Below, piece by piece: positions 1-13,844 of a stretch of DNA of 42,472 nt (the stretch's first letter is position 1; each line of letters starts with the position of its first letter). This DNA comes from Oceanispirochaeta sp. (GTDB lineage: Bacteria; Spirochaetota; Spirochaetia; DSM-2461), in assembly GCF_027859075.1 (NCBI RefSeq), contig NZ_JAQIBL010000235.1:1-42472 (forward strand). The letters are read 5' to 3'. The notes beneath the pieces were generated by a model, which was given only the letters and a program-made list of their open reading frames with translations, was not told the DNA's origin and made no database searches. The translations under genes were made by a program, and so were the position numbers.

Positions 1-1
1 G

Positions 2-499
2 GGTATGGGGAGGGCTCTGCTGAAATCCGCCGAAGAGGATATCCGGAATCGGGGAGCTGATGGAATCGCCGCCTGGGGGATTACCCTGCCCTTTTGGATG
101 AAGGCCTCCTGGTATAAAAAACAGGGGTATCAGGTGGTACAGAAAGATGGAATGCGCCGTCTCTTATGGAAATCCCTCTCCCCGGATGCTCAGGCTCCCC
201 AATGGTCTGTGCCGAAGAAAATCAGCAATTCTTCCAGAGAAACAGGAATGGTGCATGTGACATCCCTTGTCAACGGAATCTGTCCTGTTATGAACCTGGC
301 GAATGAACGGGCGAAAGCCGTCTCTGAAGAATTCGGAGATGCCGTCGTGTTCCGTGAAATTGTGACAGAGGAACCGGATGTGCTGAAGGAATGGGGGAGC
401 AGTGATGCTCTGTTTATCAACGATCGCGAAATCCCTCTGGGCCCCCCCTTAGCAAAAAAGAAAATCAGAACTCTTATTCAAAAGGAACTGAAGAGATAG
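2..499 (+). CDS. GNAT acetyltransferase with YoaP-like C-terminal domain (5'-truncated by window edge)
   Basis: The reading frame is open to the left edge. Its first visible residues, GMGRALL, are the acetyl-CoA pyrophosphate loop of a GNAT fold, so the N-terminal half of the acetyltransferase domain lies outside the window. The rest of the GNAT fold follows (YKKQGYQVV and the hydrophobic strand after it). From about residue 82 of the visible part a second domain of some 80 residues begins. It contains NGICPVMN and ends INDREIPLGPPLAKKKI, resembling the thioredoxin-like YoaP-type domain found fused to GNAT proteins; this assignment is from memory of the family. The substrate is unknown. It converges on ktrA, with only a short hairpin-rich gap between them. 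Confidence 0.75.
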   Translation, partial: GMGRALLKSAEEDIRNRGADGIAAWGITLPFWMKASWYKKQGYQVVQKDGMRRLLWKSLSPDAQAPQWSVPKKISNSSRETGMVHVTSLVNGICPVMNLANERAKAVSEEFGDAVVFREIVTEEPDVLKEWGSSDALFINDREIPLGPPLAKKKIRTLIQKELKR

Positions 500-562
500 A
501 AACTCCTTCAGATGAATTTTCTATCTCTTCACTCTCGATTTAGAGATACATCTTAAAATCGA
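491..562. terminator. Overlapping hairpins between convergent GNAT and ktrA genes
   Basis: AAGAGATAGAA (491-501) is perfectly complementary to TTCTATCTCTT (519-529). TCGATTT (535-541) can pair with AAATCGA (556-562). They lie where two convergent genes end, so they may terminate transcription from both sides. There is no long T-run and the stems are AT-rich, so the call is tentative. Confidence 0.35.
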
Positions 563-1293
563 AATCTACTAAACAGTTTCTTTTTGGGCTGGAAGAATAG
601 GCTCTTCCAAATAGTGTCTTTCTTATCAGGAGATCCTGAAGGAGTAAAACCTGAAAATCGTATGATATCCCGTTGATCTCCCACTGCCAATAGAACTGTA
701 TTATTAGTCATTCGAAAGTCTCCATCAACAAAGTGGAAGGGTTTTCCTGGAATGTCCCGGACAGCCATAATGTTCAATTGATAAGTTTTCCGGAAATCGA
801 CCTCAATAAGTGTTTTTCCATCCAAATCAGGGGGTATCTGAATTTCTGCTATCACTAATCCATCGCTGATCGGAAGAAAATTATAGAAATCTGGTGAGAC
901 CAGAAGGGGAGTAATCCTTTTCGCTGCTTCCCGGGTTGGAAAAACTACCCGAGAGGCCCCAAGAAGTGAAAGAATCTCTCCATGTTCATCACTTTCAGCT
1001 CGGGCCACAATATTTTTAACTCCCATTTTATTAAGATAGTTTGTTACTAATGCAGAGACTTCGACCTTCCCTCCTAGATCAATAACCACACCATCGATTC
1101 CCTGGGGTACTAATTTTCTGATGACTTCTTCGTGCAAAGCATTTGCAATGAAGGATTTACTTACCCTGTTTGAATACTGTTCAATAAGTGCTTCATCCTG
1201 GTCAATGACCATAACTTCCACATTTATTTGACTCAATTCCTCGAGGACCCTTTTTCCGAAGGCCCCCAGTCCAATAATTACAAATTGTTTCAT
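553..1293 (-). CDS. ktrA: KtrA/TrkA-type potassium uptake regulator (RCK domain)
   Basis: Cytoplasmic gating subunit of a Ktr/Trk potassium transporter, 246 residues. The N-terminal Rossmann half carries the nucleotide-binding GLGAFG at residues 8-13 and an acidic residue at the end of the second strand (VMVIDQD). The RCK-C (TrkA-C) half begins near residue 140. The length is close to KtrA (about 220) and far shorter than the duplicated TrkA (about 450), so a Ktr-type octameric ring is expected. The ATG overlaps the ktrB stop by four bases (ATGA), so it is translationally coupled and is the last gene of the operon. The C-terminal tail after about residue 215 is rich in basic and aromatic residues. 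Confidence 0.9.
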   Translation of the reverse strand: MKQFVIIGLGAFGKRVLEELSQINVEVMVIDQDEALIEQYSNRVSKSFIANALHEEVIRKLVPQGIDGVVIDLGGKVEVSALVTNYLNKMGVKNIVARAESDEHGEILSLLGASRVVFPTREAAKRITPLLVSPDFYNFLPISDGLVIAEIQIPPDLDGKTLIEVDFRKTYQLNIMAVRDIPGKPFHFVDGDFRMTNNTVLLAVGDQRDIIRFSGFTPSGSPDKKDTIWKSLFFQPKKKLFSRFRF

Positions 1294-2606
1294 CCTGTTA
1301 TTACCTCACCAAATGGATATTCCACCATCTGTACTTTGCAATGTTTAATACGATCGGTTGCCATAAAAATCAGCCCGATTCGACCCGATAACATAGTGCC
1401 GATAATTATGATTTTACCCAGGAAACTGAGCTTTGCCGTGACACCTAAAGATAGACCTACGGTCCCAAAAGCAGAAATGGCTTCAAAAACAAGTTCGAAA
1501 ATCCCTATATGCCCATTTTCAAGCAAAGATCTTTCAGTTAAGGACAGTAAGAAAATAACGCAAGAGAGAAGAAATAGAGCTTTGATGAAAAAGAGACCAG
1601 CATGACTAATGACTCGGGCAGGGATTCGGTAGTGACCGAAAAAACTGTCTCCATTTTTATCAATCCCTCGAAAAAGAGATAAAAGAACAAGAAAGAGGGT
1701 GGTCACCTTAATTCCTCCTGCCATGGAACCTGGCGCTGCACCAATAAACATGAGCACCATGGTGAACATGTTGGACTTTGGAGAAAAAGAGTTCATCGGC
1801 AACGCATTGAATCCTGCGGTTCGGGGTGTCACCACATGGAAAAAGGCGTTGAGTATTTTTTGTGGGGGTAGAAGATATTCAAATGCCCTATGCCGCTCAC
1901 TGATGTAGAAAAAGATGGTGCCACCAAGAACCAGAATCAGGGTAGTGATCAGTACAACAGTTGAGTGAAGTGAAAGTTTGGGTTTCGCTCTTCGAACTCT
2001 TGCGGAAATATCATGAAGAACAACAAAGCTGATCCCACCACATATAACCAACAATGATACTGTTATCATAACGAGAGGATCTCTGTTCCATTCTTCCAAA
2101 CTATTCGGAAAGGTTGAGAATCCGGCATTGCAGAAAGCGGAGATTGCATGAAATACAGCCGTAAATCCTCCTTGTGGGAGATCATGAAAACGCACAAATA
2201 AAATCAGAGCCCCTATCATTTCGGTAAAGAATGTTAGAAGAAGAATTGACTTGATAATTTTTTTTGGTTCATATTCGATTCCTTCAACATAGAAATTCTT
2301 GATAAGACTTCGATTATTAAAAGAGATTCGTCTGCCGGGAATTAATAAGAGAAGAGTGGCAAAGGTGATAATCCCTAACCCACCAGCCTGGATGAGTATC
2401 ATTATTACTGATTTTCCTAATAGTGTGTATTGAGACGTATCTACGGTTATTAATCCCGTCACACAGACAGCTGAAGCGGATGTAAAAAGACTATCTATAA
2501 AATGGAGTCTATCTGGCCCATTCCAGGCCGCAGGAAGATAAAGAAGTAAGGCTCCAATCAAGGTTGTGGAAAAAAAGTAGCTTAAGAGAATGTAACTGCT
2601 TTTCAT
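1290..2606 (-). CDS. ktrB: KtrB/TrkH-family potassium channel subunit
   Basis: Membrane-embedded potassium-translocating subunit of 438 residues, the usual KtrB length. The four pore loops of the superfamily are visible with their selectivity-filter glycines: AVCVTGL, FCNAGF, PRTAGF and FGTVGL, in that order. Hydrophobic helices flank each loop, consistent with the four M1-P-M2 units. It overlaps the upstream pseudo-receiver gene and the downstream ktrA by four bases each, so the three proteins are made from one coupled message. The operon has its own sigma-54-type promoter next to a sigma-54 activator, which is unusual for Ktr genes. Dependence on sodium cannot be read from the sequence. Confidence 0.92.
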   Translation of the reverse strand: MKSSYILLSYFFSTTLIGALLLYLPAAWNGPDRLHFIDSLFTSASAVCVTGLITVDTSQYTLLGKSVIMILIQAGGLGIITFATLLLLIPGRRISFNNRSLIKNFYVEGIEYEPKKIIKSILLLTFFTEMIGALILFVRFHDLPQGGFTAVFHAISAFCNAGFSTFPNSLEEWNRDPLVMITVSLLVICGGISFVVLHDISARVRRAKPKLSLHSTVVLITTLILVLGGTIFFYISERHRAFEYLLPPQKILNAFFHVVTPRTAGFNALPMNSFSPKSNMFTMVLMFIGAAPGSMAGGIKVTTLFLVLLSLFRGIDKNGDSFFGHYRIPARVISHAGLFFIKALFLLSCVIFLLSLTERSLLENGHIGIFELVFEAISAFGTVGLSLGVTAKLSFLGKIIIIGTMLSGRIGLIFMATDRIKHCKVQMVEYPFGEVITG

Positions 2607-3181
2607 GGTAGTTCCAACTGAGTAAAGCGTTTTATGGTTTTAGGATTGAGATAGAAGGGACAGGACAGATGATTTCGATTACTGCAGAAATGATTCATTC
2701 TCCTCTTATTAATAACCAATCTATTGTAGTCGGCACCGCATAAGCTGATCTCTTCATTAGCATTATAAACTTCATAATTAAGAAAAGGGCAGACACTGGC
2801 AGCAGTTGTAAAAGGCTCAAGCTGACTATCACTTGATCTATAATAATGAGTTAATTTCTGTTTGTTTATTATGGGGTCAGTAAGATAGGCAATAAATGTT
2901 ACGCCCGTTTCTATTAACTTTTCAACCAGAACTCTTTGTGGATAATCCAGCAAAGCAATAACAGGGATGGACGTAATTCGTCTATCCCGTTTCAAACAAG
3001 TACACAATTCAATAAGTTTTGAATTCAGTTCTATTGACCCATAAGAAAAACGAATGAAAACAAAATCGGGATTCTGAATTTCGGTCAGGGATAAGCAGCT
3101 GATGGGGCTGCTGGTAAATAAAATTTCTCCATCAGATCCATTCCATTCATTTACTGAGATGTCACATAAAATTCCACGCAT
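2603..3181 (-). CDS. Pseudo-receiver protein with C-terminal four-cysteine cluster
   Basis: I recognise no named family. Residues 1-115 follow the alternating strand/helix pattern of a response-regulator receiver: PDFVFIRF sits where the phospho-acceptor strand would be, and IPVIALLDY and a GVTFIAYLTDPI segment match the later strands. The acceptor Asp is absent (FVFIRFSYG) and so is the conserved Lys, so it should not be phosphorylated. The last third has Cys131, Cys148, Cys166 and Cys174, the first and last in CPF motifs, which could bind zinc or an iron-sulfur cluster, or form disulfides. It is the first gene of the sigma-54-driven operon and overlaps ktrB by ATGA, so a role in controlling potassium uptake is inferred. 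The SD sequence AAGGAG and the ATG both lie inside a perfect palindrome. Confidence 0.7.
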   Translation of the reverse strand: MRGILCDISVNEWNGSDGEILFTSSPISCLSLTEIQNPDFVFIRFSYGSIELNSKLIELCTCLKRDRRITSIPVIALLDYPQRVLVEKLIETGVTFIAYLTDPIINKQKLTHYYRSSDSQLEPFTTAASVCPFLNYEVYNANEEISLCGADYNRLVINKRRMNHFCSNRNHLSCPFYLNPKTIKRFTQLELP

Positions 3182-3219
3182 ACTGTCTCCTTAATGTATC
3201 CATTAAGGAGACAGTATGC
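3178..3219. repeat. Perfect 19-bp-arm palindrome over the SD and start codon of the K+ operon
   Basis: Positions 3178-3196 and 3201-3219 are exact reverse complements around a TATC loop. On the minus strand the 3' arm contains the Shine-Dalgarno sequence AAGGAG and the ATG of the pseudo-receiver gene; the 5' arm overlaps the GC of the sigma-54 -12 element. It could act as a protein-binding site or an SD-masking hairpin. If transcription starts near 3206, only about 7-8 base pairs (CUUAAUG with CAUUAAG) would remain in the RNA, still covering part of the SD. Confidence 0.85.
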
Positions 3220-3232
3220 AAAAAGTGTGCCT
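3217..3232 (-). promoter_or_regulatory. Sigma-54 (-24/-12) promoter of the pseudo-receiver-ktrBA operon
   Basis: The minus strand reads AGGCAC, five bases (ACTTT), then TTGCA. This matches the consensus TGGCAC-N5-TTGCW except at the first base, with exact spacing of the essential GG and GC. The predicted start site is near 3206, about 25 bases before the ATG. A sigma-54 activator gene of the NtrC class lies on the same strand less than 3.5 kb upstream, which makes the match more credible. Confidence 0.65.
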
Positions 3233-3288
3233 AAAAAACATTTATATATCTTGAATGAAATTAAGGTCCTGGACATACCTTTCATGTG

Positions 3289-3327
3289 TTGCAATATGCA
3301 ATGATTCAACAATGAACTTTGCAATAT
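3289..3327. promoter_or_regulatory. Paired TTGCAATAT boxes, possible enhancer sites for the sigma-54 activator
   Basis: TTGCAATAT occurs at 3289-3297 and 3319-3327, 30 bp apart (about three helical turns). The first copy is part of the interrupted palindrome TTGCA-ATA-TGCAA (3289-3301). They lie about 85 and 115 bp upstream of the predicted sigma-54 start, where NtrC-family activators normally bind. Assignment to the neighbouring regulator is inference. Confidence 0.4.
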
Positions 3328-3350
3328 TCAAGAACTGAAAGAAGAGTTCC

Positions 3351-5156
3351 TCAATTAGACAGTGGGAGAGTGAAGGTAAAAATACTGCCTTGTCCTTGTT
3401 GTGATTCCACCCATATGGTCCCACCGTGGGCTCTAATTATCTCTTTACAGATGGCCAATCCCAATCCGGAGCCACCGGATTTCCGGCCCCGAATCTGAGA
3501 GAATTTTTGAAAAATTCGAGATTGGTATTCTGGAGGAATACCTTGTCCATCATCTTCTACAGAAATATGGATGTTAAAACCAATTTTTGCTGCAGAGATT
3601 TTAATCATTCCTTTATCGGAAATATAGCGTAAAGCATTGGATACAAGATTAGACAGAACCCAGGTTACTTTATTCATATCTCCGTCGAGGAATTCAGCGC
3701 CTTGATGGACTGTCCTGGACAGCTTGATTTGTTTCTCCTCAGCTTGCTTTCGGAATATTGATTCGATATATTCAAACAGAGAGTTGACTTCTACTCTCTC
3801 CTGATCTATTTCAATTCTTCCTGATTCAAGACGGGATAACTCCAGTAAGTCCTCTGTAAGAGATTTCATATAAAATATCTCTTCCCTCGCAGTACTAATC
3901 AGATCTCTTTCCATCTCATCCTCAGAGTTCATTAATCGCTCGTAAAGCAGGTCTATACTCATTCCAAGGCTTGTCAGAGGTGTTTTGAGTTCATGAGAAG
4001 CGGCCATGACGAATTCACTTTTCAGGTCTTCCAGCTCTTTCATTCGGGTAATATTGCGAAGCAGAAGAAGTATCCCCGAAGCGATTTTCCTTTTTCCGCG
4101 GATGGGAGATAATGTGTATTGATAATGCCGTGGCTCACCATTCGGATTCTGAATAACGAGAATTCTCTCTTCCTCGGGCAGACCATTTAAGGGGTCCTGA
4201 TGAACACTCTCTCGAATAATAGAACAGAGGGGAACACTGCCGCAGAGATCTTCACAATCAGAGCCTAATGTATTCAGCGGATCGGCATTAAAAATTTTCA
4301 ATGCCGCAGGATTGATACTGATAACAACCAGTTCTTTATCAAACACAACCAATCCGTCCTCAATTCCAGAAATAATTGTATCCGCTTTATTCTTTTCTGA
4401 GACTATCTGCTCGATATTTAATTCATGGTAATTCCCAAGTTGTAAGGCCATTGCATTGAATTCTTCTGCTAAAGTGCCTAGTTCATCCTTACTGCCAACA
4501 TCGACTTTTGCGGAATAATCCCCCTGTGAGAGTCGTCGGGAAGCTTCGCTTATCTTATATATGGGCTTAACAATCCGCTCTGCCAGGAGAAGGCTGAAAA
4601 AGAAAACAAACAAAAGTGAAATAGCGGTAATGACTAGTGTAGAAATAAAAGCTCTATTCGAGAGGACTCTAGCTTGATTGCTAGCTTCGTACATAATGGA
4701 CTCGTTAAGTTCTAATAAATCGGTACAAAGGCTCCTTATTTCTCCTTGTCGCGGCAATGGTGATGTGTCCTTGTCCACACTTAACCAAAGAGCAACCTCT
4801 TCCCGATAAGCAGAATAGCGGTCACTTATCTTCTCAACAATCTCCGCTTCCCCTGAGATGGTAATATTATCTTTAGCCCGAGCCAGCCACTCAATAAAAA
4901 GTGCATCCAACTTTCGTAGGTTTTCATGCAATGGCTGATCGGGTTCTTCATATCTGACTTGTAATAATATGGTCTTTTGTTGATCCATAGACTGCCTCAT
5001 CCCAATTGCAGCAGATATACTACGATAATTTTCCCTTAATATGGCATCAGAAGCTTGTCCCAGAGAGATTATATTTACCAAGGCCCAAACAATAACCATA
5101 CCTGATAAAACCAGAACCAGTCCGTTGGATGTCAGTATCTTATTTTTTAACCTCAT
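3351..5156 (-). CDS. KinB-like sensor histidine kinase (4HB sensor, HAMP, PAS, HisKA, HATPase)
   Basis: Membrane sensor kinase of 601 residues. Order: TM helix about 11-32, periplasmic helical segment about 33-168 (four-helix-bundle type), TM helix about 170-192, HAMP about 193-245, PAS about 256-370, HisKA with phospho-acceptor His388 in ASHELKTPLT, and an ATPase domain with N-box around 503-510, G1 DDGQGIP (535-541) and G2 GGSGLGLAI (561-569). The PAS domain contains Cys301, Cys305 and Cys311 close together, a possible redox- or metal-responsive site. The start has a strong SD (AAGGAGG, spacing 7) and lies 15 bases after the stop of the sigma-54 regulator, so the two form a pair like KinB/AlgB. 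The stimulus is unknown; the downstream potassium operon is the obvious target. Confidence 0.9.
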   Translation of the reverse strand: MRLKNKILTSNGLVLVLSGMVIVWALVNIISLGQASDAILRENYRSISAAIGMRQSMDQQKTILLQVRYEEPDQPLHENLRKLDALFIEWLARAKDNITISGEAEIVEKISDRYSAYREEVALWLSVDKDTSPLPRQGEIRSLCTDLLELNESIMYEASNQARVLSNRAFISTLVITAISLLFVFFFSLLLAERIVKPIYKISEASRRLSQGDYSAKVDVGSKDELGTLAEEFNAMALQLGNYHELNIEQIVSEKNKADTIISGIEDGLVVFDKELVVISINPAALKIFNADPLNTLGSDCEDLCGSVPLCSIIRESVHQDPLNGLPEEERILVIQNPNGEPRHYQYTLSPIRGKRKIASGILLLLRNITRMKELEDLKSEFVMAASHELKTPLTSLGMSIDLLYERLMNSEDEMERDLISTAREEIFYMKSLTEDLLELSRLESGRIEIDQERVEVNSLFEYIESIFRKQAEEKQIKLSRTVHQGAEFLDGDMNKVTWVLSNLVSNALRYISDKGMIKISAAKIGFNIHISVEDDGQGIPPEYQSRIFQKFSQIRGRKSGGSGLGLAICKEIIRAHGGTIWVESQQGQGSIFTFTLPLSN

Positions 5157-5171
5157 CTCTCGGCCTCCTTT

Positions 5172-6548
5172 CTAAAGGTTATATTGTTTACGTTTTCGCC
5201 ACAGGGTCGCCTGATCGATCCCCAGAATTAATGAGGCTTTTTTCAAAGATGACGTTTGTTTCAGGATGCGGTTGATGTACATCTCTTCAAGTTCGGCTAA
5301 AGTGAGGAGCTCTTGATCAATAGAATCAGTTATTCCTGGTTGTTGCATTTTTTGGGGCAGATCATCGGGTTTGATTACACATGGTTTGTTCAAAATGATA
5401 GTCCGTTCTACTACGTTTTTCAGTTCTCTGATGTTTCCCGGCCAAGAAAAGCTTTGCATGATATTTAGAGTTTCGGAAGAGAATGTAAAGCCCTGCTTAT
5501 GATTGACTCTACTGAAGTGGTTTAAAAAGGTTTGAGCCAAAGTGGGTATGTCCTCTCGTCGATCTCTCAGAGGAGGAAGAGTGACACTTATAACCTCTAA
5601 ACGATAGAACAGATCTTTCCGGAAAAGATTTTGCTCAACAAGAGCAGCCAAGTCTCCATTAGTTGCTGCGATGATACGGACATCTGCTCGACAGGTTCTT
5701 GAGTCTCCAATACGTTCATACTCTCGGTCTTGAAGGAACCTGAGGATTTTAGCTTGCAGTGGAAGGGGCATTTCTGCTATTTCATCCAGAAAGAGGGTTC
5801 CCCCTTCACAATTTCTTATTCTTCCTGGATTATCCTTAACCGCTCCAGTAAAGGCTCCCCGAACGTGGCCAAAAAGTTCACTTTCCAGCAGTTCTGCAGG
5901 AACAGATGGACAAGAAATGGTACCGCATACTCCAGCAGAGCGGCTGCTCCATTTATGAATTTCTCGGGCTATGAGAGATTTACCAGTTCCACTCTCTCCC
6001 TGAAGGAGGATTGTCGCCTCTGATTCAGCCGCTGTTTTTAAGAGCTCTAAAGTTTTTTGATATTGAGGATTATTTGATTCCCAATGGGATTCAGGTTGAA
6101 CCTCACTGATGTCAGCTTTTAAAGTGGCATTTTCCAGCTCCAGAAAGCAAATTTGAGTATATTGCCTGGCCAGGACTTTGATTCGATCAGCTGAAAAAGG
6201 TTTAGCTACATAATCAACTGCACCGACTCGCATTGCTTCAACGGCTGTATCGATACTGGCATGAGCAGTGATCACAACTATTTTAATCCCTGGTGACTCC
6301 CGAAGAATCTCTGGGATCAACTCCAGTCCATTGGTTTCTTCGAGCCTTAAATCGACAAAGGCAAGATGTATCCTTTGCTTTTTTACGACCTCAAGTGCGT
6401 CTTTGCCATTAGAAACAGCAATTACTTCATGCCCCAAGGACGATAAACAATAGGAGACGGTTTTTCGAATGTTCGCTTCATCATCGACGACTAGGATATT
6501 GAGAAAAAATAGGTCAGAATTGAGCGAAACCTTTTCAGTTGATTTCAT
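5172..6548 (-). CDS. AlgB/NtrC-family sigma-54-dependent response regulator
   Basis: Transcription activator of sigma-54 RNA polymerase, 458 residues from the ATG at 6548. The receiver domain (about 17-130) has the acidic pair in VVDDE, acceptor Asp66 and Lys116. The AAA+ domain has Walker A GESGTGK (184-190), the sigma-54-contacting GAFTGA (231-236) and Walker B TLFLDEI (251-257). The C-terminal Fis-type helix-turn-helix ends [15 protein letters not shown], the form typical of AlgB-like regulators. A longer TTG start at 6569 is possible. I prefer the ATG because a -10-like TATTAT lies six bases before it and neither start has a good SD. It is transcribed with the sensor kinase and probably drives the sigma-54 promoter at 3217-3232. 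Confidence 0.92.
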
Positions 6549-6678
6549 GAGATGATAATAACACAACAAGATTGTGTCTTTACATCTGAATTGAGTATTT
6601 TATATGGAAAAGACAGAGAGATTCCCAGTAGTGGAAAATAAGAATTAGAGTTAGTCGCTTCTATGCCATTTATTTAAT

Positions 6679-6690
6679 ACCGACATCGGT
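6679..6690. promoter_or_regulatory. Small palindrome in the 252-base gap upstream of the two-component operon
   Basis: ACCGA-CA-TCGGT is an interrupted palindrome about 130 bp upstream of the regulator start, in the AT-rich gap 6549-6800 between the two-component operon and the upstream abrB-like gene. It could be an operator. I see nothing else clear in this gap apart from the -10-like TATTAT at 6555-6560 on the minus strand. Confidence 0.25.
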
Positions 6691-6800
6691 TCTCTATTTT
6701 TACTGTTCATTGAGGTTTTATATTTTTGAGTTCGGGTTGAATACAGCAATCCATAATTAATAGGACGTAATGTGGATGAGTTTTACTACACTATAGTGCT

Positions 6801-7295
6801 TCAAAGAAATTTTGAAATAAACTTCACAATAATGGGCATAAAAACCACCACAGTCACCAGTCTCAGCGTATGAAGGAGGGCTACAACATGGGCCTGGGCG
6901 CCATAGGCATCGGATATCAGGACAATATTCGCCAAGCCTCCGGGAGACGCGCTGAAAAGGGCTGTGATCAGGTCAATACCGGTGACTTTAGAGATGACCA
7001 GACCCAGCAGAAGGCTGAATACCATCAGGCCCACCACCATGATGACCGCTGCGCCGAATATGGAACCCAGACCCTTGATGGTCTCCGTATTGAAATTCAA
7101 TCCTATTGAGGCTCCGATCACAATCTGCAGGACCGTATTGGCCTGTGGTGGAACATATCCTTTATTGGTCAGCAGATTATACACAGCCGTGGCGACCATG
7201 GCACCAAAGAGGGCGCCTGCCGGGAGTTTCAGTTTGATCCCGATCATTCCTCCCACAGCGGCCACAAGTAAAGTAGTAATAAATCGTGATATCAT
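6801..7295 (-). CDS. Half-size AbrB-type (membrane AbrB duplication) protein
   Basis: Hydrophobic protein of 164 residues with about five TM helices. It contains one copy of the repeat that is normally duplicated in about 350-residue AbrB-family membrane proteins: KLPAGALFGAM near the N-terminus, then IGASIGLNF and ALFSASPGGLANI, the latter being the most conserved stretch. The start ATG overlaps the pabB stop (ATGA), so the longer frame starting inside pabB is not needed. Single-repeat members exist, often as pairs of genes, but no second copy is visible here. In other bacteria the family is linked to ammonia or small-molecule transport and regulation; no substrate can be inferred. The neighbouring chorismate gene is its only contextual hint. 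Confidence 0.8.
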   Translation of the reverse strand: MISRFITTLLVAAVGGMIGIKLKLPAGALFGAMVATAVYNLLTNKGYVPPQANTVLQIVIGASIGLNFNTETIKGLGSIFGAAVIMVVGLMVFSLLLGLVISKVTGIDLITALFSASPGGLANIVLISDAYGAQAHVVALLHTLRLVTVVVFMPIIVKFISKFL

Positions 7296-9076
7296 ACATG
7301 GTCTCCCTTGTCCCAACGGGCCTTGATTCTGCCCCGGACCGAATTGATCAGATAAATCTCATCCGCCGTCACCAGCTCGTCCAGGGTGATGACCCTCTCT
7401 TTGATTTCTCCAGACTCCAGCATCTCCCGGCGGAGGGTTCCTCCCAGGAGTCCCGAAGTTCGGGGAGGGGTGAAGGAATCCCCTCCCCAGACAGCTATTA
7501 TATTACAAACAGTTGTTTCGCACACTTCTCTTTTTTCATTCCACAGAAGCACATCATCTGCCTCGGGCCATTGGGCCCTAAACTCCTTATAGAACTCACG
7601 TCTTGTGGTTTTGTGATAGACCAGGGGATTTTTATGATCAATGGGAGTCTTTGCGCTTTTGATGGTCCAGGCTTGGGGTCCTGCTTCGGCCGGGGGAAGA
7701 GGGGCTGTTTCAATCTGCACCTCTCCCCGGCTGTCCAGCAGGAGGCGGACCCGCCTGTTTCCGGGTTCATAAAATAATGAGCTCTCCCGGATGAGTTTAG
7801 TTTTCACCCTCTCCCGGCTAAACGGGCGGTCGAAGTATTCGGCACTCTCTTCCATCCTGTCCAGATGCCTGTCCAGGAGAGAATAACCCTCAGAGGGGGA
7901 CCACTTCAGTGTCTCCAGGAGTGAGAAATCCGGCATTTTCCGGGTCAAAATCTGTATCTTATTCAAGGATTCCGCGTATTCCCCTTCGGCGGTTGAATCC
8001 CAGACAATGCCTCCCCCGGTGCCATAAAAGGCTTTCTTCCTGGAATTGTCTATCAGGGCCGTACGGATGGCTACATTGAACTGGGCCTTCCTGTCAGGAC
8101 CCCAGTATCCGATGGAGCCGGTATACAGTCCCCGGGGAGTGTTTTCCAATTCTCTGATGATCTCCATGGTCCTATATTTGGGTGCTCCCGTGATGGAGGC
8201 ACAGGGGAAGAGATTGTTCATAATCTCCGGTATTTCGGCGTCAGTTTCTGCCAGAATCTCACTGGTCATCTGCCAGAGAGTGGGGTACTTTTCAAGATTG
8301 AAGAGCCGGGGAACCCGGACACTGCCCGTTCGGGCGATGCGTCCCAGATCGTTGCGGATCATATCTACGATCATCATGTTTTCCGCCCTGTTTTTCTCTG
8401 AGTTCAAAAGCTCCCGGGACTTCTTTTTATCTTCGCCCAGGGTCAGCCCCCGGGGAGCGGTTCCTTTCATAGGTTTTGTGCTGATCCTGTCTCCGTCTAA
8501 AGAAAAGAAAAGCTCCGGCGATGCGGAGCAGACGGTCCATTTTCCCAGGCTCAGGTAGGCTCCATAGGGTGCCTTCTGGGCGGTTCGTATCCGGCAGAAA
8601 AACTCCCAGGGATCTTCGGTGAAATCTGCTTTCAGGCGGTATGTATAATTGACCTGGTAGGTCTGGCCCTGGCGGATGTACTCTTTCACGGCCATGATTC
8701 CTCTGTTGTATTCACTCCGGGTCATAGTCGCCTTCCAGTCTGGCCCTTTTCCTTCGCCCTGGGATGGATCTTGAGACGGAATCAGAAAGTTTTTATCCAG
8801 AATTGTCGGGGTCGGGTAAAGGGTAAAAGACAGGAGGGGAGTCTCTTTGTCCCTCTGAGAGTGAAGGGCGTCATCCATACCGGGAGCCGCATCATAGGCG
8901 ATGAATCCGGCGGCATAGAGCCGTTTTTCTTTGACCTCTCTATGAATCCTGAGGATAAGCGGACCGACTTCTTCCTGTCTGTATGCGGAGTATGTTGTCA
9001 GGGGATTCTGAAAATGGAGCCAGCTTTTCGACTGTGCATCATGAATGAGAGCCTCTCCCTCACGACAGGGATTCAT
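7292..9076 (-). CDS. pabB: Bifunctional aminodeoxychorismate synthase I / 4-amino-4-deoxychorismate lyase (PabB-PabC fusion)
   Basis: Folate pathway enzyme making p-aminobenzoate from chorismate, 594 residues. The first about 370 residues are the chorismate-binding domain, with the PabB-type active-site motif STKPMKGTAPRG (Lys as nucleophile/acid, usually PIKGT), followed by SEKNRAENMMIVDMIRNDL, CASITGAPK and a GTGGGIVWDS segment. The last about 200 residues are a class IV aminotransferase-fold lyase: the PLP lysine is in VYHKTTRR, and EVCETTVCNI and the TPP..GLL.GT.R pattern follow. The glutaminase partner PabA is not in the window, so it must be encoded elsewhere or the enzyme uses ammonia. 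The ATG has a strong SD (AGGAGG, spacing 6). The abrB-like gene is coupled downstream. Confidence 0.92.
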   Translation of the reverse strand: MNPCREGEALIHDAQSKSWLHFQNPLTTYSAYRQEEVGPLILRIHREVKEKRLYAAGFIAYDAAPGMDDALHSQRDKETPLLSFTLYPTPTILDKNFLIPSQDPSQGEGKGPDWKATMTRSEYNRGIMAVKEYIRQGQTYQVNYTYRLKADFTEDPWEFFCRIRTAQKAPYGAYLSLGKWTVCSASPELFFSLDGDRISTKPMKGTAPRGLTLGEDKKKSRELLNSEKNRAENMMIVDMIRNDLGRIARTGSVRVPRLFNLEKYPTLWQMTSEILAETDAEIPEIMNNLFPCASITGAPKYRTMEIIRELENTPRGLYTGSIGYWGPDRKAQFNVAIRTALIDNSRKKAFYGTGGGIVWDSTAEGEYAESLNKIQILTRKMPDFSLLETLKWSPSEGYSLLDRHLDRMEESAEYFDRPFSRERVKTKLIRESSLFYEPGNRRVRLLLDSRGEVQIETAPLPPAEAGPQAWTIKSAKTPIDHKNPLVYHKTTRREFYKEFRAQWPEADDVLLWNEKREVCETTVCNIIAVWGGDSFTPPRTSGLLGGTLRREMLESGEIKERVITLDELVTADEIYLINSVRGRIKARWDKGDHV

Positions 9077-11219: not shown

Positions 11220-12601
11220 TATTTCTGATCAACACTGTCTACATTGTGTGTTCTGTCCTTTTTATCGTCGGTCTCAAGCTGATGAGCTCTCCTGCCACTG
11301 CCAGGCGGGGAAATCTTCTTTCCGCCCTGGCTATGTTCCTGGCGGTGGTCATCACCCTGCTGGATCGTAATATCCTGTCCTTCCAATGGATTCTGATCGG
11401 AATCGCCGTGGGATCACTCATCGGTATTCTGGCCGCCCGGCTGGTGGCCATGACCGATATGCCCCAGATGGTGGCTGTCTTTAACGGATTCGGTGGTATT
11501 GCCAGTCTTCTGGTCGCCTGGGTTCTGTTTTTCAAAAATCCAAATACCGAGGCCTTTACCCTCATCACCCTCTACCTTTCAGTCTTCATCGGAGGCATCA
11601 CCTTTACAGGCAGTATGGTGGCTTTTGGAAAACTGGATGGAAAAATCACAACCAAACCTGTCCAGTTTAAAGGGCAGCAGATTGTGAATTCCCTGATTCT
11701 CCTCTCTTTATTCAGTTTTGCTGTACTCTTTGTCTTTCCCGAATTGGCGGGAATTCCCCGTTCTTCCCTGATCCTCTACGCGGTGATCCTGTCGGGAGTC
11801 CTGGGTGTGATGGTGGTCATTCCCATTGGCGGGGCGGATATGCCCGTTGTGATCTCTCTGCTTAACTCCTACTCGGGTCTTGCCGCCTGTGCCGCAGGTT
11901 TTGCCATCAGGAATAATCTCCTCATCGTCTCGGGAGCCCTCGTCGGGGCCAGCGGTATCATCCTGACCAATATCATGTGCAAGGCCATGAACCGATCGCT
12001 GGCCAATGTCCTGTTCAGCGGCTTCGGTTCTGCCGGCGGCAGTGTTGCCTCCTCCGAGGGGGAAGAAGGGGAAATCAGGCCCATCAGTTCAGAAGATGCC
12101 TATCTTATCCTGGAAGCCGCCTCTTCGGTGGTGATTATTCCCGGTTACGGCATGGCTGTTGCCCAGGCGCAGCATGTGGTGAAAGAGCTGGGGAATCTTC
12201 TGGAGCAGAATGGAGCGGAAGTGAATTTTGCGATTCATCCCGTTGCCGGCCGGATGCCCGGTCATATGAATGTTCTTTTGGCTGAAGCCAATGTTTCCTA
12301 CGATAAAATGAGAGAAATGGATGACATCAATCCCATGATGGAAACCGTGGATGTGGCCATTGTTATCGGAGCGAACGATGTTGTGAATCCCGCCGCCAGA
12401 GAGGTGGAAAGCAGTCCGATTTACGGGATGCCCATCATCAATGCGGATAAAGCCAAGACCGTATTTGTTCTGAAACGATCTATGAGAACAGGATTCGCCG
12501 GTATTGGCAATCCTCTCTTTTTCAGAGAGAATACACGAATGCTTTTCGGGGATGCCAAAGCCTCTATCCAGGCTTTGGTAGCCCAGTTTAAGGAGTCTTA
12601 A
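11216..12601 (+). CDS. pntB: NAD(P) transhydrogenase subunit beta
   Basis: Membrane plus NADP(H)-binding subunit of 461 residues, normal family length. The first about 260 residues form the helical proton channel, with MTDMPQMVAVFNGFGG and GGADMPVVISLLNSYSG as signature stretches. The C-terminal 180 residues form the NADP-binding domain III, with GYGMAVAQAQ, HPVAGRMPGHMNVLLAEA, GANDVVNPAA and the final GFAGIGNPLF. It overlaps pntAB by ATGA. The NADPH made is a likely electron source for the YqhD-type reductase encoded next. Confidence 0.95.
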   Translation: MIFLINTVYIVCSVLFIVGLKLMSSPATARRGNLLSALAMFLAVVITLLDRNILSFQWILIGIAVGSLIGILAARLVAMTDMPQMVAVFNGFGGIASLLVAWVLFFKNPNTEAFTLITLYLSVFIGGITFTGSMVAFGKLDGKITTKPVQFKGQQIVNSLILLSLFSFAVLFVFPELAGIPRSSLILYAVILSGVLGVMVVIPIGGADMPVVISLLNSYSGLAACAAGFAIRNNLLIVSGALVGASGIILTNIMCKAMNRSLANVLFSGFGSAGGSVASSEGEEGEIRPISSEDAYLILEAASSVVIIPGYGMAVAQAQHVVKELGNLLEQNGAEVNFAIHPVAGRMPGHMNVLLAEANVSYDKMREMDDINPMMETVDVAIVIGANDVVNPAAREVESSPIYGMPIINADKAKTVFVLKRSMRTGFAGIGNPLFFRENTRMLFGDAKASIQALVAQFKES

Positions 12602-12630
12602 TCTCAGGTTATAAGACAGAAAAATAAATA

Positions 12631-12661
12631 CTCAGAGATCCGCCGGTCGCGGTTTTCTGAG
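12631..12661. terminator. Hairpin between pntB and the alcohol dehydrogenase gene
   Basis: CTCAGAGATCCGC (12631-12643) can pair with GCGGTTTTCTGAG (12649-12661) at 11 of 13 positions around a CGGTC loop. No T-run follows; instead the SD of the next gene comes four bases later. It may attenuate or process the transcript rather than end it. Confidence 0.35.
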
Positions 12662-12674
12662 AACAGGAGAACTC

Positions 12675-13844
12675 ATGGACAATTTCATTTTCAGAAATCC
12701 CACACAAATCTATTTTGGAAAGGGCATGGAAAACAAAGCCGGTGAAGCGGTCAGTGTTTACAGTAAAAATATACTCCTTCATTACGGTGGAGGTTCTATT
12801 AAAAAGTCAGGCCTTTACGACAGGGTTATCGCCTCTCTGAAGTCATCAGGGGTGGAGTGGACTGAACTGGCTGGTGTGAAACCGAATCCACGGCTTTCTC
12901 TAGTGAGGGAAGGTATTAAAATCTGCCGTGAAAAAGATATAGATTTTATCCTGGCTGTGGGGGGAGGGTCGGTCATCGATTCCGCCAAAGCTATTGCTGC
13001 GGGAGTTCCCTATGAGGGCGATGTCTGGGATTTCTATGAAGGAAAGGCTCAGCCTGAAGAGGTCATCGGTCTGGGAACCGTTCTGACCATCCCTGCCGCT
13101 GGAAGTGAATCCAGTAACGGGACGGTCATAACCAAAGAAGAGGGTCAGCTGAAAAGACCCTGCGGTTCGGAACTCCTCTATCCTGATTTTTCCATATTGA
13201 ATCCCGAGCTGGCTATGACTCTGCCACCCTTTCAGAGGGCCTGTGGAGTGGCTGATATGATGGCTCATCTTTTTGAGCGTTATTTCACCAATTCCTACCC
13301 TGTTGAATTGACCGATAGAATGATCGAAGCCGTATTAAAAACCATAATTCATAATGGTCCGAGTGTTATGATGGATGGGGATACCTACGATGCATGGGCA
13401 GAAATTATGTGGTCCGGAACAGTCGCTCATAACGGCAGCCTGGATACAGGGCGTCTGGGGGACTGGGGCTCCCATCAGATGGAACATGAACTCAGCGGTA
13501 TTTATGATGTAGCTCACGGAGCGGGTCTTGCCGCCCTGTTTCCTCATTGGATGCGTTATGTGATGAATCAGGATATCAAACGTTTTGTTCAGCTTGCTGT
13601 CCGTGTCTGGAATGTGGATCAAAATTTTAAATCCGATGAAGAAACGGCTCTGGCCGGCATAGAGGCTCTGGAACAGTTCTGGCAGTCACTGGGACTGGCC
13701 ACCACACTCTCTGGTCTGGATATTCCCGGAGACAGGCTGGAGGAAATGGCGGGTAAATGTGCAGGAGAAACAGATAATCCTCAGGGACAATTTGTAAAGC
13801 TTTATAAAAAAGATGTACTGGCTATACTGGAAATGGCCCTGTAA
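12675..13844 (+). CDS. Iron/zinc-containing alcohol dehydrogenase, YqhD/BDH type
   Basis: NADPH-dependent aldehyde/ketone reductase of the group III metal-dependent alcohol dehydrogenases, 389 residues. The metal ligands are visible as Asp194 and His198 (ADMMAHLFE), His267 (GSHQMEHEL) and His281 (VAHGAG). These are the same positions as the ligands known for E. coli YqhD, so the proteins align almost without gaps. The cofactor loops HYGGGSIKKSG (36-46) and VGGGSVIDSAKA (95-106) are intact; the former matches the NADP-preferring form. SD AGGAG precedes the ATG. It follows the transhydrogenase genes after 73 bases, which fits use of their NADPH, for example in fermentative aldehyde reduction. 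The physiological aldehyde is unknown. Confidence 0.92.
   Translation: MDNFIFRNPTQIYFGKGMENKAGEAVSVYSKNILLHYGGGSIKKSGLYDRVIASLKSSGVEWTELAGVKPNPRLSLVREGIKICREKDIDFILAVGGGSVIDSAKAIAAGVPYEGDVWDFYEGKAQPEEVIGLGTVLTIPAAGSESSNGTVITKEEGQLKRPCGSELLYPDFSILNPELAMTLPPFQRACGVADMMAHLFERYFTNSYPVELTDRMIEAVLKTIIHNGPSVMMDGDTYDAWAEIMWSGTVAHNGSLDTGRLGDWGSHQMEHELSGIYDVAHGAGLAALFPHWMRYVMNQDIKRFVQLAVRVWNVDQNFKSDEETALAGIEALEQFWQSLGLATTLSGLDIPGDRLEEMAGKCAGETDNPQGQFVKLYKKDVLAILEMAL

Follow-up and report, generated by a model that had tools for sequence, protein, structure and literature searches.

The window, the whole stretch of 42,472 nucleotides from Oceanispirochaeta sp. analyzed here (contig NZ_JAQIBL010000235.1), carries a K+ uptake locus in which a 192-residue protein is encoded between a two-component regulatory system and the genes for KtrB and KtrA. 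Along the minus strand, the features of this locus are as follows.

5172..6569, minus strand, NtrC-type sigma54 response regulator (receiver, AAA+ and HTH_8, from domain matches)
3351..5156, minus strand, KinB-like membrane histidine kinase (sensor, HAMP, PAS, HisKA and HATPase, from domain matches; relatives of the sensor occur in 61 loci)
3217..3232, minus strand, predicted sigma54 -24/-12 site, AGGCACACTTTTTGCA, with 1 mismatch, upstream of the pseudo-receiver gene; transcription predicted to start at about 3206
3178..3219, minus strand, perfect 19-bp hairpin with a 4-nt loop, enclosing the Shine-Dalgarno sequence and the ATG in the read-through mRNA
2603..3181, minus strand, predicted pseudo-receiver with a Cys4 tail, 192 aa
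2822..3181, minus strand, receiver-like domain of this protein, residues 1-120, with conserved C6, D7, P26, C29 and R83
2660..2791, minus strand, Cys4 tail of this protein, C131-x16-C148-x17-C166-x7-C174
2603..2606, minus strand, 4-nt stop/start overlap with ktrB (ATGA)
1290..2606, minus strand, KtrB/TrkH-family K+ channel subunit (Pfam PF02386, 1.6e-52; NCBIfam TIGR00933 above cut-off)
553..1293, minus strand, KtrA (RCK protein, TrkA_N and TrkA_C; Pfam PF02254, 8.5e-23)

The 192-residue ORF and its four tail cysteines are present in the sequence as an earlier, sequence-only reading of this DNA had reported. The TGA of the pseudo-receiver gene overlaps the ATG of ktrB (2606-2603), and ktrB overlaps ktrA (1293-1290).

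Taken as a single sequence, the window protein matched no Pfam or NCBIfam family, and its best match among PDB sequences was DivK (E 0.16). When it was the single query, neither 61 relatives nor 393 genomes of the phylum yielded a convincing homolog, its exact peptide seeds had no match in GTDB contigs, and a single-sequence search of plasmids and phages missed the family. The family was reached by scanning GTDB contigs with an alignment of the kinase sensor, which yielded 61 loci, and by phmmer searches within these loci, which recovered the 192-aa homologs. A profile of 17 members (A3) detected further members in genomes searched irrespective of neighboring genes, including an even draw of 345 Desulfobacterota genomes sampled without using the neighbors. 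Together, these searches gave 28 family loci (denoted L below), from Spirochaetota, Desulfobacterota, Glassbacteria, and the candidate division CSSED10-310. The family is not covered by Pfam, NCBIfam, PHROG or the PDB; viral contigs searched with the family alignment and plasmids searched with a better query than the lone sequence did not reveal it; and no protein of the pseudo-receiver plus Cys4 type is described in the searched parts of open-licence papers. By sequence comparison, the 192-aa protein is a real bacterial family, unnamed before, and it is new with respect to every library searched. The protein is rare: it was detected in 8 of the 345 Desulfobacterota genomes and in one of six genomes of the window's genus, and the other genomes of this genus with KtrB have different genes upstream of it.

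The single-sequence AF2 model of the protein was poor (pLDDT 44) and was replaced by a model based on a 17-row alignment (pLDDT 84.5, pTM 0.80). In the latter, the receiver part consists of strand 3-6, strand 20-23, helix 26-36, strand 40-45, helix 50-65, strand 74-78, helix 83-92, strand 96-99, and helix 107-119, with the first receiver helix not helical; the tail adds strands 134-138 and 144-148 and helices within 159-178. The top Foldseek ranks of this model are receivers throughout (DivK, 1e-5; CheY variants; KdpE; PhoB; probability 1.00); a predicted fold unrelated to receivers, which would have counted against the sequence-only reading, is thus not what was found. At the sequence level, none of 17 members matched Pfam Response_reg (PF00072), even at E 0.1 and hence below the gathering threshold; among PDB sequences, the family profile best matched the second receiver of PleD, over helix3-strand4-helix4 (E 0.03), and three members matched the NCBIfam PleD model (best 2.7e-4).

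The acceptor position is occupied by Arg44 in the window protein and by R, C, S, L, I, N or F across 24 members, never by Asp. In the alignment to DivK, the switch Lys and Thr/Ser are gone (position 78 is mostly L, positions 100-102 are variable), and the N-terminal acidic pair is not intact: it reads C6-D7, with D kept in 19/24 members and the other acid replaced by Cys in 21/24. The alignment and the alignment-based model bear out the earlier description of a receiver domain without the acceptor Asp and the conserved Lys. By its predicted fold, the protein is a pseudo-receiver that has lost the phosphorylation residues, an example from nature of a receiver that has become a non-phosphorylated module in a transport operon. 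The unphosphorylatable domain probably serves as a protein-protein docking module, and docking without phosphorylation, by analogy with the D2 domain of PleD and other pseudo-receivers, is its likely mode of action.

Cysteines 131, 148, 166, and 174 are kept in all 24 full-length members at a constant spacing of 16, 17, and 7 residues, so that the invariance among homologs, proposed as a check in the sequence-only reading, is observed. Because these four are invariant with exact spacing while C60 (15/24) and C62 (4/24) are not kept, the cysteine tail goes beyond chance. Of the two CPF motifs noted before, both are found in the window, at 131 and 174; in the family, the first CP is kept (25/27), but most members have CEYY or a similar sequence instead of the second motif. 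Mean pairwise identity is 52.6% in the tail versus 36.2% in the receiver part. P26, L59, R83, E144, and A150 are also invariant across several phyla. In the receiver part, C29 (23/24 full-length members) is conserved along with C6, a conservation absent from the sequence-only reading. The tail has no relative among PDB sequences and, searched alone, gave only low-scoring matches in the 393 phylum genomes. In 18 family-bearing or related genomes it detected nothing outside the family except three weak partial matches, and is therefore not seen on other proteins in those 18 genomes. The four cysteines are candidate ligands and most likely bind one metal ion or Fe-S cluster.

Locus L156 (6796-7038, minus strand) has an in-frame deletion of the receiver part that leaves 80 aa with the start and the Cys tail and still overlaps ktrB; a similar deletion in L088 is frameshifted, and this copy is probably broken. 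The idea that tail-only copies prove the tail sufficient was dropped, as L088 is out of frame and L156 alone is weak evidence.

The usual gene order is NtrC-type regulator, KinB-like kinase, (receiver-TPR-like protein, TrkA, TrkA, TrkH), pseudo-receiver, KtrB, and KtrA. The ktrB gene is directly downstream of the pseudo-receiver gene in 23 of the 28 loci, with the 4-nt overlap in 20 of these 23, and in all 8 positives of the even Desulfobacterota draw. The translational coupling to ktrB proposed for the window is thus conserved, but the gene is not always beside ktrB. Five loci depart from this arrangement. L107 and L092 have TrkH operons that lack ktrB; here the genes for the NtrC-type regulator and the kinase flank the pseudo-receiver gene, whose stop in L107 overlaps a kinase start codon. 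In L069 and L086, ktrB has been lost from the locus and a same-clade ktrB is found elsewhere in the genome, with the pseudo-receiver gene kept. In L063, a ktrB pseudogene with many stops (11360-12850) is flanked by the pseudo-receiver gene and ktrA, both intact, and another KtrB is encoded elsewhere in that genome. KtrB of the usual partner clade occurs without a pseudo-receiver neighbor in L091 and L115, the Halanaerobium loci encode KtrB-KtrA-kinase without a pseudo-receiver, and many loci with this type of KinB-like kinase lack it as well. In L157, the pseudo-receiver gene has the 4-nt overlap with ktrB and adjoins a different kinase.

In FastTree sketches, which carry no support values, the window KtrB and KtrA fall among other spirochaete KtrBA, as sister to L011, outside the usual partner clade, and the window kinase groups with the L063 kinase. 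Since the window KtrB comes from a different clade and the ATGA is kept, the coupling of the pseudo-receiver seems to have survived a channel exchange.

In most related operons, the gene that separates the kinase gene from trkA/trkA/trkH encodes the conserved receiver-TPR-like protein, which has an intact acceptor Asp; the window lacks it. A representative is:

L059 8719..9408, minus strand, receiver-TPR-like protein (also L060, L064-L070, L072-L074, L077-L080 and others)

One phylum genome has the same regulator-kinase pair and, in the same slot, an ordinary receiver-TPR-like protein followed by TrkA/TrkA/TrkH. A 679-aa KtrB-like ORF in a Bdellovibrionaceae locus (L117, 6250-8289) has a long extension at its N terminus, and ktrA and an ORF resembling the kinase sensor follow it; L075 (10843-13593) contains a 916-aa ORF resembling a P-type cation ATPase between the kinase gene and trkA.

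Of 53 related loci, 21 have sites of the sigma54 -24/-12 type upstream of the kinase gene, against 0.7 expected and none on the opposite strand, and these operons appear, from such sites, to be driven by sigma54. In the window, the site at 3232-3217 is the only one upstream of these genes and lies directly 5' of the pseudo-receiver gene; as the whole window contains two sites against 0.92 expected, the argument here rests on position, not number. The site overlaps the hairpin, and the predicted start falls inside it. In the read-through RNA, the hairpin has a folding energy of -34.8 kcal/mol (z -9.0); in RNA that begins at 3206, most of the 5' arm and the long stem are gone (-10.1 kcal/mol, z -1.0). 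The site and the hairpin together form a predicted device by which only the sigma54 transcript would be translated and read-through from the kinase gene would be blocked. Of the family loci, only the window has this hairpin (the inverted repeat of L155 lies further upstream and is unrelated), and no Rfam family matched within positions 1-8000 of the window. A repeated element was considered for the palindrome and rejected, as it is present in a single copy in the genome.

The explanation we favor, tentatively and as somewhat short of probable, is that the non-phosphorylated pseudo-receiver with its putative Cys4 metal or Fe-S site is a cytosolic regulatory partner of KtrB and the K+ uptake system. 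Under this scheme, the KinB-like kinase would sense a signal and phosphorylate the NtrC-type regulator, which would then fire the sigma54 promoter just 5' of the pseudo-receiver gene. The sigma54 mRNA, unlike the read-through mRNA from the kinase gene, would have a free RBS, and the pseudo-receiver would be translated, with KtrB and KtrA made alongside through the ATGA overlap. Metal or Fe-S occupancy or the oxidation state of the Cys4 site would change docking, and, in response to metal or redox state, the pseudo-receiver would adjust KtrB or else the KtrA ring.

That the channel rather than the kinase is the target, we infer from the coupling to ktrB: the frequent linkage, the conserved overlap, and its persistence with a KtrB of a different clade. 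The confident receiver model, the acceptor Asp that is never present, the invariant cysteines in a tail better conserved than the receiver part, the cysteines kept beside ktrB in L156, and the sigma54-like sites are all consistent with the channel reading. Against it stand the two operons with the gene by the kinase and no ktrB, the loss of ktrB in L069 and L086, the same-clade KtrB of L091 and L115 that occur without the protein, the rarity of the protein, and the restriction of the hairpin to the window. Of the properties expected of an accessory subunit, linkage and co-translation with ktrB are found, and linkage exclusively to ktrB is not. A narrower version, in which the protein is a third KtrAB subunit gated by redox state or metal, its Fe-S or Zn Cys4 switch opening or closing the K+ channel in mostly anaerobic bacteria, is rather unlikely as it stands; if true, it would tie K+ uptake directly to the state of oxygen, sulfide or metal. 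The protein is a candidate link from metal or redox state to K+ uptake, and whether this uptake is gated or licensed by such a state via a soluble subunit is a testable question.

The kinase remains a serious alternative target because of L107, L092, and L063. The pseudo-receiver could dock on the KinB-like kinase, or on the regulator, acting there as a connector or non-phosphorylatable decoy through which metal or redox state influences how the K+ uptake genes are transcribed. We consider this possible but on the unlikely side. The same kinase type is nearby in most loci, the gene is found between the regulator and kinase genes in operons without ktrB, with a stop that overlaps the kinase start in one of them, it is intact beside a ktrB pseudogene in L063, and the window kinase groups with that of L063 while its KtrA and KtrB group with other spirochaete KtrBA. 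However, in 20 loci it is ktrB that the gene overlaps, L157 shows this overlap beside a different kinase, and many loci with this kinase type do without the protein. Less probable still is a purely structural zinc site in the tail, with the protein acting as an assembly or stability factor of KtrB and sensing nothing. The strictly constant spacing of the cysteines suits a structural site, and coupling to a multimeric membrane protein would be typical of assembly partners, but same-clade KtrB proteins in L091 and L115 manage without the protein, and the near invariance of C6 and C29 in the receiver part exceeds the needs of a structural site in the tail. Finally, a decaying, functionless receiver gene that is in the operon by accident would fit the lost active site and the frameshifted copy in L088, but is very improbable given the invariant cysteines and the other invariant residues, conserved over phylum distance at ~30% identity, and the conserved overlap with ktrB.

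Compared with known systems, the pseudo-receiver is of a known kind, the Cys4 module is unstudied, and the operon partner is unusual; together they define a protein family that had not been described, whose chemical signature is sharp and whose operon partner is clear. In the window too, KtrB and KtrA have the standard domain make-up of KtrAB/TrkAH systems. The known ligands of KtrA are ATP/ADP and c-di-AMP, and a third, soluble, Cys-rich pseudo-receiver subunit of KtrAB was not found in the titles and abstracts of the papers searched. The fold is shared with single-domain response regulators such as DivK, CheY, and Spo0F, whereas the family lacks their acceptor Asp, Thr/Ser, and Lys, falls outside Pfam Response_reg, and adds the Cys4 tail. 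With PleD D2 and other non-phosphorylated pseudo-receivers it has the receiver fold in common, but it is a stand-alone protein without an output domain, lacks helix 1 in the model, carries the Cys4 tail, and belongs to a K+ uptake operon.

The hairpin logic is that of Bacillus subtilis sigG (PMC5942855) and phage T4 gene e (PMC3014915). In both, a long hairpin masks the RBS when the mRNA comes from read-through, and transcripts from the gene's own promoter are unable to fold it; in the window, by contrast, the promoter is a predicted sigma54 site. Control of K+ uptake by sigma54 and an NtrC-type regulator has a parallel in the sulfate reducer Desulfovibrio vulgaris, where the sigma54-dependent response regulator DVU3334 drives the kdp K+ uptake operon (PMC3333781, PMC4641369). 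That system is a Kdp with the K+-sensor kinase split into two ORFs, whereas the window combines a KinB-like kinase, Ktr/Trk, and the pseudo-receiver.
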